Source: Macrocystis pyrifera (Eukaryota > Sar > Phaeophyceae > Laminariales > Laminariaceae). From it: DNA of 64,000 nucleotides. The stretch lies in contig JASSKH010000017.1 of the NCBI GenBank assembly GCA_031763025.1, positions 5,737,361 to 5,801,360 on the forward strand, in the 5' to 3' direction. Below, piece by piece: positions 9,765 to 64,000 of the stretch (the stretch's first letter is position 1; every line of letters begins with the position of its first letter). Position numbers and translations under genes: made by a program. The notes under the pieces were generated by a model. The model was not told where the DNA came from. It saw nothing but the letters and a program-made list of their open reading frames with translations, and did not search any database.

Positions 9765-9965
9765 CCTCAATGCCCTCAAAGAGGGACTGCAGTCCTGTTT
9801 TGGGGACACGCTATTACGGCGGGCCATAGTAAACAGGACCTACGGTACACAAAAACCTATATAATTATCCATTTTTACTAACAATGATTGGTTTTATTTA
9901 CTATGACCCCCAGTAATGCTCAAATTCCAAGTACTTTGTCCCCTAAACGGGACTACTACTAATAA
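9765..9965. mobile_element. F palindromic element interrupted by M1
   Basis: F elements are about 100 bp with inverted ends near AACCCTTT..AGGACTGCAGTCCCGTTTTGGGGAC and the complement; no coding. Here the arms (GACTGCAGTCCTGTTTTGGG; TTTGTCCCCTAAACGGGACT) flank the M1 at 9812-9917. Confidence 0.65.
9812..9917. mobile_element. M1 MITE in the centre of an F palindrome
   Basis: The ends are TATTACGGCGGGCC and GACCCCCAGTAAT. It splits the F element spanning 9765-9965 near its midpoint. Confidence 0.88.
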
Positions 9966-11106: not shown

Positions 11107-11488
11107 GTTAGTCCCCGAAATCGCGGGTGGGTGCAGTTCTTCAGTTCTGAAGGGGATGTCAACCCTCTATTAGATTAATAGGTGCTGCACTACTAGCATT
11201 GCACGTACAATACCTCTCTGGCGGGAAATACTAGAACCGTTTAGACATTCATATGAAGAACACGCGGTCCTTGTATTTACGTCCAGAGTGGTCGGGAAAA
11301 AAATGCTACTTCGGCCGGGAATATAAGGAACACATTTAGACACTGATATGAATACCAAGCGATCCTTTTATTTTACGCCACGAGTGGTACATATCTGGCT
11401 TCAATCCGAAGAAATCTGTTGCCAAAGCGGGATATTGCGGTCAATTAACCCTTACGACTGCGGTCCCGTTTTGGAGACAAACTATTAC

Positions 11489-11706
11489 TATTACGGGGGA
11501 CCATAGTAAATAGGACCAACTATTGTTTCTACGGGGGTCTATAGTTAACAGGCCCTATGGTATACATACAAACCTATATATTTACCTATTCTTACTAACA
11601 ATATTTGGTCCCGTTAACTATGGACCCCCGTAATAGTAACAATAGGGAAGTACATAGGTTTTTGTCTGTACCGTACGTCCTATTTACTATGGACCCCTGT
11701 GTGATG
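11489..11706. mobile_element. M1 MITE, outer element of a nest
   Basis: A subfamily a copy split in its middle by another M1 (11528-11635). The two outer halves, ...AGGACCAACTATTGTT and GTAACAATAGGGAAG..., join to a normal M1. The outer copy itself sits inside an F element. Confidence 0.88.
11528..11635. mobile_element. M1 MITE, subfamily b, nested in M1
   Basis: Runs from CTACGGGGGTCTATAGTTAA to GGACCCCCGTAATA. It occupies the TA in the middle of the outer M1, the homologous site also hit at 55599, 55561 and 63830. Confidence 0.88.
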
Positions 11707-12069
11707 TTAATATTACTTGACATTTGAGGGGTTTATCCCCAAAATGGGACTGCGGCTCTAAAACAGGGTCAGGGGCCGGTCCCCTGTGGGCCGGACCGAC
11801 ACCGAAAGCAACCAAACCAACCAACCAACCAATGCAGAAATGACGCATTCTGAAACCACTCGACGGGGGAGAGTCTCGCCGAGAAGTGCGGGGAAGGGGG
11901 TTCGGTCTACTGCAGTAATTACCTGGTACCGTACAATAATACCTGGTAACCCTTTTGTTACCGCTAGAAACGGTTTCCTTACGTACTATGTAATACCTGG
12001 TAGTAGTGTCTACTGCTACAACGTAGGCCTTTACCAGTATTTATTTTTGCGGCAAGTCCCCAGGGCTCA

Positions 12070-34697: not shown

Positions 34698-37600
34698 TCA
34701 CGACGAGGCGATATCGATCGCCACCCCTACAGGCACCACAATCATAACAAGGACACCGAACACAACCAGACCCTTGCAAGCCAAGCGGTAGTGCGCCGTC
34801 CCGTGCAGCCGCCACCCCCCCCACCCGCCCCCTACCCCCCCATTATCACCGCCGCCGCCGCCCAACAGAAAGCGTTGCTCCTCGTCACGAGTGGATGAGA
34901 GGTAGATCAACGCCGGTAGAATAAAGCTTACCACCGATCCGGTCACACCTCCCGCGATGTCCAAGATATACCCGAACAGCTCCCCCTATGCGGGCGGGTG
35001 GGTTGGTAGGTGGGTTGGTGCGGCGTAGAAGAGATGGGAGGGAGAGAGGGAGGAAATGAGGGGTCTACTCATCATCATGCATGGCCGTAGTCGTATGACC
35101 ATAGACCCTCGCATCCCTACAATGCCGGGACGGAGCGCGTCGGGTTTTCACCGACCAGGCAGAAATTGCTTGCCTGAGGAAGGGAGGGGGGGGAAAGGGA
35201 ACGCCGGCGACATATACATATACCGAGAAGGGGAGAAAGAAAAAAAACGAGAAAAAACATATGCCATGTATATATTTTTCAAACGCACCAGTGCGAGAGC
35301 CGCGCAAAAATCGAAACGTATCATACAGAGTACATCCAAGGGTGAATCTGTAATATTACGGGGGGAAATACCATGGTAATCAGAACCAAATATGGTGTGT
35401 AAACATATAGGGGAATACGTGGTTTTTGGGTTCATCAAGGGTTCTGATTCTTACAACATATGCCCACCCGTAATACATACCAGGTAGAGTATATACAATC
35501 TGAGGGTACTCGGGTATCTACTCGAGTATATCTTGTTTGGTACCCCCGAACCAACCCGAGCATGATTCAGGCAACCAAGTTTAGTACCCGGGTACCTACC
35601 CAAGAATGACCCAAAGAACCAGGCTTGGGACCCGCGAACTAACCCGAGCACGATTCCGACAACCAGGTACGTACCCGGGTACCTCCCCTAGTACATGCTC
35701 CGAACAACCAGGTTTGGGATCCGTGAACTAACCCCTAGTATTATTTACCTACCCGAGTATGTCCCAAACAACCAGGTTAGGTACCCAGGTACCCCAGAGT
35801 ATATACTTCCAAGTACCCTACGAGTACTCGTACAAAATATACCCTTGAACTCTTGCAAAAGTAAAAGAACACAAAAAAGAAACACGAGCCGTGAGATCGA
35901 AATTTTAATTTTCCTCAAAACTCATCCTATTTGCAAGCTTGGTGTGATAAACCGATCAAAGGGTGCTGCGGGGTGTGCAGGCTTTAGAGTGGCCTACAAA
36001 TTCTGACAGTTTTTGGAAGCGATGACATTCGCTATCTACCAGGTATGAGCAAAATGGTTACGTACTGCTGTAGCTTCGGTATGACGCCGCCCCGAGGGTG
36101 TTCAGGATAAATACTCGTTCGAGGCGTATCTCACCTGGGCGACCCCGGCGGCATCGAGGCCGACCATCAAGGCCACGATGGACGCCAGAATTGCGAACGT
36201 CACCCACGCCACCTTGCCAAAATCGGCAGCCATGACATCGTGGTTCTGCAGCGCGAAGAGGCTGTGCCTCAGCACGATCACCTGAACAATTAGACGGGAA
36301 AAAGGAAGGAAAAGCAAAACGCGCGCCACACGACAGCGGGGTATAAATAATACGTGCAAAGTACACGGCAGTGCACGGTAATATTCCCGTAAGAGGTGCA
36401 GCGATCATTTTTTTCCTCAAGTTTTACTTACTGCTAGGTTATCTGTCTGCACTATATCCCAAACGACCAAACATTCTTGACCCCCTCATCTTGCGAAGCC
36501 AACCATTGACCCCGATTATCGCGATTCGCAACACACTTTTCTCAAATCCACACGCCGAGCAAAGCGTGACTCACGAAAAAAACGAGGGACAGATCACTTG
36601 TACTTGGAGGTGCATGATCCTTGCAGTAGAAAAAGGGTCAAAAGCCACACCAGAGGAATTACGCACCTTGCTTGGGGCCTGAAAAGGTTTCAGGCAGGTC
36701 TCAGGCATAGTTCAAGGAAAACGCCTCAACCCTTTCAGGCCTGCAGTGCCGTTTAGGGGACAAACCACTCAGGTTCTAAGTATTACGGGGGACCATAGTA
36801 AATGGGACCAAATTTTGTTAGTAAAAATAGGGAAAATATATAGGTTTTTGTGCGTATCGCAAGTCCTATTTACTATGGTACTCCGTAACAGTGTGTCCGC
36901 AAAACGAGACAGCAGCCCCAAAAGGGTTAACTGTTAATATATAGGCATGTTTAGGGCGTGTTTCTGCAAATCAGGCATTTTTCCACCTACGTGCCCACCG
37001 AAATAATTTTCGCCCGCGGCGTGCCTATCTACACGTGCCTGAAGGAGCCTACCGCGTGCTTTGATGCTGATTAAAAGGCGAGGGGCTACCTATACGTACA
37101 GCTGCGCTTGCCTTGCAGTCCGGAAAATTTTCCCCCCGACATCAGCAGCCCGGGTTACCGCAGAGAGGTTTGAGTGCGCACAGGAGTGCGATCGTTTTTT
37201 AGCACTGGCTTTATCAAAAACGGCAACGGTGCTGAAAGCCGAACATTACATTTTCGGAAGGCTTCTCTCTCCACCAGATATTTTACCGAAAACACCTTTG
37301 TTATTCGGTATTTTTTGGCAAAAAAAAAACTTTCACACACTCTCGGGCAGATAGATCGTTGATTCCCACGGTTGATGAATCTAGGCATTACGAGGCAAAT
37401 ATTATTCTCGATTCTGTACGATCTAGCTCACGTTGACGGGTGGGAGCCGTACAAGCCGCATGATCTAGCTGATGCTTTCTGGAATAGATCTGCACCATAC
37501 AGATCCTACACATCTCGGCGGCTTAGATTCCTACTGTAGATGATCTAGATGGTCATATAGATGATCTACATCACGATTTGTCCAAGGTGTACAACCTTCC

Positions 37601-53000: not shown

Positions 53001-56000
53001 CTATTCATATTCGGTGTGTGACTTACTTAATTTAGTAGACGAGGTCATTACCTGACGAGGGCGGGTATTGGTGGTGGTGGTGGTGGTATTACGGGGGACC
53101 ATAGTAAGTAGGCCCAAATATTGTTGGTAAAAATAGGGAAATATATAGGTTTCTGTGTGTACTGTAGGTCCTATTTACTATGGACCCCCGTAATAGTAGT
53201 AGTGGTAGTAGTGTGTGATGGTGTCGGTGGTGTTTGTGATGATTGTGATGGTGGAGGTGGTGGTGGTGGTCGTGGCGGCGGCGTTGGGGGTGACGGTGGT
53301 GGTGTTGGTGATGATCGTTTAGATCGCCGTACACGCCACGTCGAATCCACAAGGTTGTGGATCAATGGCGCCAGTGTTCATCAACGGCCAATACCAAAAG
53401 TGCGCCTGGTATTTTGATACCAGGTACGACTCCCCCAGAGATTGTCATTCCGTTTTTTTCGGCGTCATCATAGGTTTCCCGGTTGGTTTAATATGCCAAT
53501 CCAAAAACAAATTACTGAAGAAAACGTCGATTGGTTGCCAGAATGCTGTGTCGGCTTCGCCGGCTATAATAGAAACACGTATAGAATCGGTACAGGCAGA
53601 TATACACCTGGTATATATTCAGTTCCGATACGTATAGTACACAGCTCTGGAATTTGACGCCCCCTCTTTTTTTGCCCCTGTTTGCCCTCGCGCTCGTTTG
53701 TGTCCTCGTATTCGCTTACGTCTTTTTTTTCGTTGTCGTTCTCGTCCCCGCGTTGTGTTCGTTTTTGTGCTCGTCGACGTTTTTCGTACACGTGTCTGCC
53801 TTTTCCTGTCCGATTTCACCTCCCGTCGCGTCTCCGTTTCTCGTCCACGGTTTTTCTGTGTCGTCCACATTTTTTCGTCTTCGTTTCGTTTTCGGAAGAA
53901 AAGGACCACCAGTTCATCGGAGAAGAGTCGACCTTCGACGCCCGCGGAGCGACAGGGGACGCATTCGAAGCGTCCCCTACCTGGGTGATTGACCCGCTGG
54001 ATGGAACAACCAACTTTGTCCACGGTTACCCGCTTTTCTGCGTGAGTATCGCGCTGGTTGTCGAGCGGTGAGGATGAGGATTACGGTGCTTTCTTTGTCT
54101 TTTTGTGTGTTTTCGTGCGTGTCTGTGTATTTTGTGTATTTTGCGTTGTTCGTATTTCGTTTTTTACTACTGTAGAAATAAATGTAGTTTGGTATTCGGT
54201 GAATGTTTGTTTTGTTCTGTGTATCATGTGCATTTTTATGTACTTTGTTTGTGTCGTGTATCTCGTGTGTTTTGTACCTTGTGTCTCGGGTGTCTTAAGG
54301 TACTTTGTTTTTCGTGCATGTCATGTATTTTCTGGGTGCGTGCGCTTGTCCCTCCTTTAGTCTCGAGTGTTTTATAGGGGGGAGGGGTTGTGTGTTTTTG
54401 TGTTGTGTTCTGTGTGTGGGGGGGGTCGTGTGTTGTACATACCAGGTACCAGGTTTTGTTCAATTTTCTTTTGTTTTGCTTTTTACCCGGCTTGCCAAAT
54501 ACCCCCCTCGGTTTTGTGACCTCGTCCAATATATAACCCCACCATGTATACCCCCCCCCCCCCCCCCCCCCCCCATTTCTGCCCGCGACGCGTCCTTATC
54601 GTCGTCGCGAAAAAACCCACCGGGTCCACCATCCATAGGTGCTCAATTTCTGACGCTGCCGTATCGCACTGTTTTTTTCGTCCATGTTTTTTTTACCCTA
54701 CCGCACCGTATTGCCTCGCCCGCCGGTAGCAGAGTCCCCGTTGTCGGCGTGGTGTACCACCCGGTGTCGGGAGACATGTACACGGCGTGCCAGGGACAAG
54801 GCGCTTTCCTCAACGGCGCGAAAATTGAGGTGCGTGCGCCCGCGATAGTGTCGTGACAATTTCTGTGTCGGATGTCGTATAATAGCGAGAGTTTCGACAC
54901 AGCGGTATATCGATTTGTCGCGAAGTATCGAGTTGTCGATATATTATCGTACGAGCACCGAACGCGTTTTGCACTATTAAAATATCGAACTATTAACAGC
55001 GATGCATCTTATCGAACGCGTTTTACGCCCGCTTTTCTTTCTGCACTTTTGCCGTGTGTTTCGCTTGTCCACGGCGGTAGCCGTCGTTTCCTTGCTCTCT
55101 CTTTTGAAATGCGATTGCAGCCTGAATTAAACTGGCTTTCTCTACCCGTACGAATCCGGTACCCCCTAACAACAAACGCCTTCCGTATGCGCTGAGATTC
55201 AGTCCCTCTCCGCAAAGCCCCTTAATTTCCTGCGTTCGATCTTGTGCGTGCCCTGAGATTCAGTCCCTCTCCGCAAAGCCCCTTAATTTCCTGCGTTCAA
55301 TCTTTTGCGTGCCCTGTGTTGATCGATACGTTTCGACGTACGTGTCGAATATCGAATATCGTATGCCGGGTATACACTACTGCTGTAGTGCTGTATATAT
55401 ATACAGATATATATATGTGTGTGTGTTCTTCACATTAAACCGTTCTTCTACTCGTCGACATAAGTATATGTATATTGCGTCTGTATCGTATCACACTCGA
55501 TTTTCATTCGACTTGCCATCAGTGTTGCGGGGGAACATTGTAATCAGGACCGAATACGCCTACTACGGGGGTCCATAGTTAACAGGACCAAATATTGCTA
55601 TTACGGGGGTCCATAGTTAACGGGACCAAATTTTGTTAGTAAAAATAGGTAAATATATAGGTTTTTATGTATACCATAGGTCCTATTAACTATGTACCCC
55701 CGTAATAGTAAAAATACCTAAATATATAGGTTTTTATCTATGCCATAGGTCCTGTTAACTATAGACCCCCGTAAATAGTAAAAGTACTGGAATATGTAGG
55801 CTTTTTGTTTATATGATGGTCCTGATTGCTGCTGTGGTGGAAGATATTGATAGCCATCCAGGGAGCAAATTTGCATACAGCAGCCGGCGTCCCCGGTGGC
55901 TTGGTAGGTGGTCCGCGTGTTTGTCAAACGATCAATTTTCGTGGGTTCAAGTCTCACCGAGCGCATGCTCGTAGGGACTTTTTCTAAAAAAATGATAGGC

Positions 56001-63791: not shown

Positions 63792-64000
63792 TATTACGGG
63801 GGACCATAGGAAATAGGACCAAATATTGGTATTACGGAGGTACGTAGTTAATAGGACCTATGGTATACATAAAAAACCTAACAAGATTTATCTATTTTTA
63901 CTGACAAAATTTGGTCCCGTTAACTGTGGACCCCCGTAATAGTAAAGATTGGGAATATATATATAGGTTTTTGTGGGTACCGTAGGTCCTATTTACTCTA
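63792..64000. mobile_element. M1 MITE, outer element of a nest, cut by the window edge
   Basis: The left half runs to AAATATTGG; the right half resumes GTAAAGATTGGGAATATATA after the inner copy and continues to the last base of the window. Confidence 0.87.
63830..63941. mobile_element. M1 MITE, subfamily b, nested in M1
   Basis: From TATTACGGAGGTACGTAG to GTGGACCCCCGTAATA. It uses the same central TA as the other nests. Confidence 0.88.

Follow-up and report, generated by a model that had tools for sequence, protein, structure and literature searches.

The bacterial element IS630 reportedly inserts at TA within CTAG, a finding attributed to Tenzen and Ohtsubo in 1991, and Jiang and Wessler are said to have inferred, in 2001, target preference from nested or clustered miniature inverted-repeat elements (MITEs). 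For Ectocarpus, the consulted part of PMC12477816 states that Mariner-Tc1 copies number almost 12,000 and are for the most part non-autonomous. The repeats of Macrocystis pyrifera were annotated with RepeatModeler according to the excerpt consulted of the published genome description, for which our literature search found no occurrence of the terms "mite" or "miniature inverted-repeat." No paper on MITE nesting in kelp and no earlier description of the MITE family M1 analyzed here were found in the literature searched. We describe four insertions of M1 into M1 in one stretch of M. pyrifera DNA, which all occupy the same TA, as well as the genome-wide distribution of such nests and the target preference of M1 outside its own copies.

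Materials and Methods

The whole stretch analyzed, referred to as the window, comprises 64,000 nt of the forward strand of contig JASSKH010000017.1 (5,737,361-5,801,360) in assembly GCA_031763025.1 (537,376,219 bases in 223 contigs). Loci L002-L030 were chosen by similarity to one M1 copy of subfamily b and are therefore a non-random sample. Locus L001 is a repeat of part of the window and was excluded from divergence medians, the copy-averaged expectation of 56%, CTAG counts, target-model predictions and rate estimates. The set of 75 target sites is restricted to non-nested copies with TA at both ends, identical flanks being counted once; for the 69-site model, the 67-site inverted-repeat test, the CTAG counts and the target-model predictions, targets whose flanks contain M1 ends were removed as well. 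Divergence was sampled from the window and 20 arbitrary 10-kb pieces.

Nested junctions were mapped genome-wide with a first pattern consisting of the outer M1 start, a gap of 5-35 bases and the inner M1 start, and with a second pattern with a gap of 36-66 bases. Insertions within ca. 22 bases of either M1 end escape both maps, and junctions were classed by alignment to the nearest consensus TA.

Results

M1 is an element of ca. 105 bp with the ends TTACGGGGG...CCCCCGTAA and, on folding, a terminal stem of 27 bp. Its terminal inverted repeats, short and uniform length and high copy number are those of a MITE, and sequence inspection revealed no coding capacity, 105 bp being too short for a transposase. 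The genome holds 15,391 exact-ended copies with an interior of 72-102 bases, and the number of full copies was extrapolated from 27 in 200 kb to be ca. 72,500. TA was present on both flanks in 85 of 118 full copies in the sequences examined (a set including three L001 copies that duplicate the window), and empty M1 sites within M1 read TTGTTAGTAA with a single TA. TA is thus the duplicated target, as in the Tc1/mariner/IS630 superfamily, rather than TTA as given in the earlier note; a reading free of target site duplication, with one extra base at each M1 end, fits the same letters. The M1 consensus sequences contain 17-18 TAs. Subfamily b is less diverged from its consensus than subfamily a, with medians of 6.7% (19 copies) and 9.5% (31 copies), respectively. 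At C128:1591806-1592034, three consecutive matches from M1 start to M1 start with a spacing of 73-74 bases look like a few partial M1 copies in tandem.

The nested copies of the window are listed in Table 1 together with M1 copies in a second, palindromic family, F. As the earlier note had stated, all four M1-in-M1 events lie at the homologous TA, which is M1 position 37-38 of 105 (TA37), and the target reads TTGT-TA-GTAA or a variant of it. The description of this TA as central did not hold, since the axis of symmetry in the fold is at ca. 53 of 105. All four inner copies, including the one at 55563, scored higher against subfamily b than against a, in agreement with the earlier assignment, which we attribute to later activity of b. 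The orientation of the inner relative to the outer copy was the same in two cases and opposite in two. At 11528 the duplication has mutated on one side (TT/TA), and the degenerate third M1 around 55563 was recognized after rejoining of its flanks, which match M1 3-91 with 24.9 bits. Because flanks, hosts and relative orientation differ, the four nests do not represent one duplicated event. If all TAs of M1 were equal, four of four insertions at one TA would have a chance of ca. 2e-4; given the measured target motif, with 56-69% of insertions expected on TA37 among the TAs at 23-84, the observation is unremarkable.

Table 1. M1 copies of the window inserted into M1 or into F palindromes.
Feature	Position	Strand
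M1 within F palindrome at GGACACGC-TA	9814..9916	-
Outer M1 (subfamily a), nest 1, within F palindrome	11491..11701	+
Inner M1 (subfamily b), nest 1, at TA37 of outer copy, opposite orientation	11529..11633	-
M1 within F palindrome, equivalent site of other F arm	36783..36888	+
Middle M1 (subfamily b), triple nest, in degenerate M1 at TA37; own target TTGCTAGTAA	55563..55773	+
Innermost M1 (subfamily b), triple nest, at TA37, same orientation	55601..55705	+
Outer M1 (subfamily a), nest 3, truncated by window end	63794..64000	+
Inner M1 (subfamily b), nest 3, at TA37, opposite orientation	63832..63939	-

The sharp genome-wide peak at one TA of M1, which the earlier note had named as support, was found with both patterns. 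The first map returned 328 matches (reversed-pattern control: 0), and among the 100 listed of these, 78 junctions lie at TA37, 7 at position 40, 6 at 31 and 9 elsewhere; 12 of the 22 listed junctions outside TA37 end in CTA, the preferred half-site. With the second pattern 308 matches were obtained (control: 0); of the 100 places listed, 12 came without letters and were left unclassed, and 78 of the 88 readable ones were at TA37, one row (C189:17444945) spanning a triple nest. Taken together, 156 of 188 readable junctions (83%) among the matches listed fall on TA37, where 188 is a number of junctions and not of events, since the two maps detect opposite junctions and some nests appear in both. 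Loci L019, L022, L023 and L029 represent one nest with common host and outer flanks, the nest being part of a larger repeat. M1 nests that are near-identical to one another were found on seven small contigs (C49, C54, C55, C77, C116, C154, and C188), which likewise points to a nest within duplicated sequence.

Outside M1, the 75 distinct non-nested sites showed, outward from the TA and pooled over the flanks of both sides, G in 62%, T in 67% and A in 53% of cases. The target of M1 is hence a TA with a palindromic preference, the consensus of non-nested copies being TACTAGTA with the core CTAG. CTAG as known from IS630 was present at 23 of 69 targets as compared to 301 of 10,878 TAs, and ACTAGT at 7 of 69 as compared to 21 of 10,878. 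One half-site, TAGTA, is perfect in TA37 (TTGT-TA-GTAAAA), which was ranked first among the interior TAs of M1 by the 69-site model; this model expects 67-69% of the insertions between positions 23 and 84 at TA37 (bootstrap 36-85%). Averaged over real copies, this additive 5-base model gave 56%, and restricting it to b copies made the expectation no sharper (57-65%). The 83% observed among the matches listed is above these point estimates and within the bootstrap range. Several M1 copies at L011:587-1717 lie within a (CTA)n-type microsatellite, consistent with an ACTA half-site.

Occupancy was counted with exact M1 ends and both flanks specified. ACTAGT was occupied in 1,208 cases and empty in 64,570 (1.84%), whereas TTGTTAGTAA was occupied in 362 and empty in 26,034 (1.37%), so that ordinary ACTAGT is occupied somewhat more often than M1 centers. 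The reversed 10-mer of TTGTTAGTAA occurs only 945 times, which implies that nearly all TTGTTAGTAA sites are M1 centers; in random pieces this was so in 16 of 17 cases. Relative to the average TA, ca. 0.053% of which is occupied (15,391 of an extrapolated 29.2 million TAs), the M1 center is used ca. 26-fold and ACTAGT ca. 35-fold more often, as compared to predictions of 4.05-fold (1.4-8.4) and 55-fold (41-75), respectively. Furthermore, M1 density at 120-1000 bp from M1 is ca. three-fold the genome mean: 32 neighbors were counted as compared to 11.0 expected at random loci, where the excess rests mainly on two loci with 8 and 10 copies, and 29 as compared to 9.4 around the searched copies. Motif (ca. 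four-fold, with wide error) and clustering (ca. three-fold) multiply to ca. 12-fold (roughly 4-25), as compared to the 26-fold observed at the M1 center. The residual of ca. two-fold lies at the edge of error and could reflect structural effects, a motif of greater length or nests that were copied, and a modest extra effect at the M1 center beyond motif and clustering may thus be present.

The TAs flanking M1 itself score at least as well as TA37 in the target model. Genome-wide, abutting M1-TA-M1 pairs gave 100 exact matches with 92 distinct junctions, as compared to 699 centre-left junctions; pairs abutting via a single TA can be seen, e.g., at L020:1500-1711 and L006:1384-1604. Abutting insertion was roughly estimated to occur at ca. 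0.7 of the average TA rate, i.e., 7-11-fold below the rate from the motif alone and 22-33-fold below that from motif and clustering combined; the estimate draws on the 27 full copies found in 200 kb and on a model whose training data were in part these very flanks. Avoidance of G-runs was rejected as a cause, GGGG/CCCC being present within 10 bp at 9 of 77 targets and at 862 of 10,845 background TAs (7.9%).

The F family consists of near-perfect palindromes of ca. 74 bp with a 28-bp stem and the sequence AGGACTGCAGTCCCGTTTTGGGGACA..., and is found at 9783, 11466, 18346, 36737, and 46103 of the window and at other loci. M1 copies near the middle of three F palindromes had been noted earlier, and indeed those at 9814, 11491 and 36783 are a few bases off the F center. 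By eye, M1 is inserted in F at GGACANNC-TA in four cases, i.e., the first and last of these three, L002 and L041, and the copy at 11491 lies six bases further in. Folding of an F sequence pieced together by reading places the insertion site at the stem edge. An (A/G)CTA site was present in four of the five cases of M1 in F examined.

Discussion

The self-nesting hot spot of M1 is, with a probability that we put at roughly 0.78, mainly sequence-driven: M1 prefers TAs of the TACTAGTA type, TA37 is the best interior match, and clustering adds to the effect. M1 inserts into and duplicates a TA within this palindromic preference, and we propose that new insertions into tens of thousands of M1 hosts would repeatedly arrive at TA37 as the best target inside M1, local clustering raising the rate of nesting further. 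The repeated use of TA37 would thus be due to its rank within M1 combined with the large number of M1 copies. A simple model of this kind falls short of the data in the share of TA37, with 56% expected as compared to 83% seen among the matches listed, in the use of the M1 center, ca. 12-fold as compared to 26-fold, and in the scarcity of abutting pairs. The TA preference would be set by a Tc1/mariner-superfamily transposase acting in trans, and such an enzyme is most likely what joins M1 ends to TA. Possible partners are the 39 genome matches to DDE_1 (PF03184; best E 1.6e-27), which are pogo-type and include several open frames of over 330 aa. A genome profile search with DDE_3 (PF13358) gave no match. 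Unpaired M1 ends outside M1 matches, searched as a lead to an autonomous element, yielded one weak candidate (L013) among the sequences examined.

The earlier note had suggested that targets are chosen by DNA structure, such as an extruded hairpin loop. In this reading, hairpins or cruciforms would be extruded by M1 and F, and the transposase would favor a TA in the exposed loop. The typed consensus of M1 does fold into a 27-bp stem with a 51-nt loop that contains TA37, and the F fold is strong too; moreover, M1 centers are used about twice as often as motif and clustering predict, and use of the M1 edges falls far below what is expected from the motif alone. However, TA37 is offset from the dyad axis, at a point 10 nt inside the loop, the TAs nearer the axis (46, 54, and 58) took 9 and the mirror region of TA37 took 2 of the 188 junctions among the matches listed, and the site used in F is at the stem edge. 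The inverted-repeat score at 67 non-nested targets was 5.66 as compared to 5.54 at score-matched control TAs (p 0.33), giving no excess of inverted repeats in the flanks. In addition, ACTAGT sites lacking an M1 context show a higher occupancy than the M1 center, and the motif measured outside M1 already ranks TA37 first inside it. Hairpin targeting is therefore not supported, and structure is very unlikely to be the main cause. The best remaining argument for it is the contrast between a favored center and disfavored edges, which a structural model might show as well.

A safe haven, in which M1 inserts widely and survives better inside old M1 copies, was also suggested earlier and is likewise very unlikely. 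The three-fold M1 density around M1 supports it only indirectly; the clustering could reflect tolerance or regional targeting, and at random loci it comes mainly from the two rich loci mentioned above. Selection would account neither for the concentration of 83% of the junctions among the matches listed on a single TA out of the 10-12 in the interval 23-84, nor for the presence of the same motif outside M1. Least probable of all is that the peak goes back to one or a few nests that were copied many times, either through duplication or because the nested unit transposed as a whole. This accounts for a minority of nests, in that the nests of four loci agree in host and outer flanks along the ca. 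1 kb aligned, and five of the small-contig nests differ by at most 2 bases, two more being near-identical by eye. Most nests are not explained in this way: the 100 hosts listed in the first map are 86 distinct sequences, merging near-identical hosts among the 88 readable places of the second map left 83 clusters, 73 of them at TA37, and the four window nests differ in flanks and hosts. A single origin was accordingly rejected except for that minority; the TA37 peak is genuine and mostly not one copied nest.

M1 is a quantified case of a conspicuous hot spot for self-nesting that comes down for the most part to a preference for a short sequence. Its nests, which number in the hundreds, record insertions into a host whose sequence is known and serve as a natural test of how targets are chosen. 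Why so few pairs abut is a different question and one that can be tested. Such pairs form near-perfect palindromes without a loop and could be lost later or excised together, or M1 ends may truly be avoided. It is unlikely, in our view, that the transposase or later instability strongly disfavors a copy against an M1 end while the interior is freely used. If true, M1 would follow a rule of self-spacing akin to target immunity, here in a eukaryotic element that inserts at TA, and the internal hot spot would be sharpened by it.

Overall, M1 is a TA-target MITE with a CTAG-type preference, new as a family and of a kind already known. It shares insertion at TA within CTAG with IS630, from which it differs as a non-coding kelp element with a wider and softer TACTAGTA preference, IS630 being a bacterial autonomous element. 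As far as described in the consulted parts of the sources, Submariner of Pandoravirus salinus (PMC4495683) and TcMar-N1_Ec32 of Ectocarpus (PMC12477816) are like M1 short, non-coding and present in high copy number, with terminal inverted repeats and TA duplication; their sequences appear to differ from that of M1. The Ac-mMITEs of pineapple likewise reveal a preferred target through their landing sites, but in the consulted part of their description (PMC8449440) they insert next to one another in (TA)n and build clusters without nesting, whereas M1 nests in itself and seldom abuts itself.
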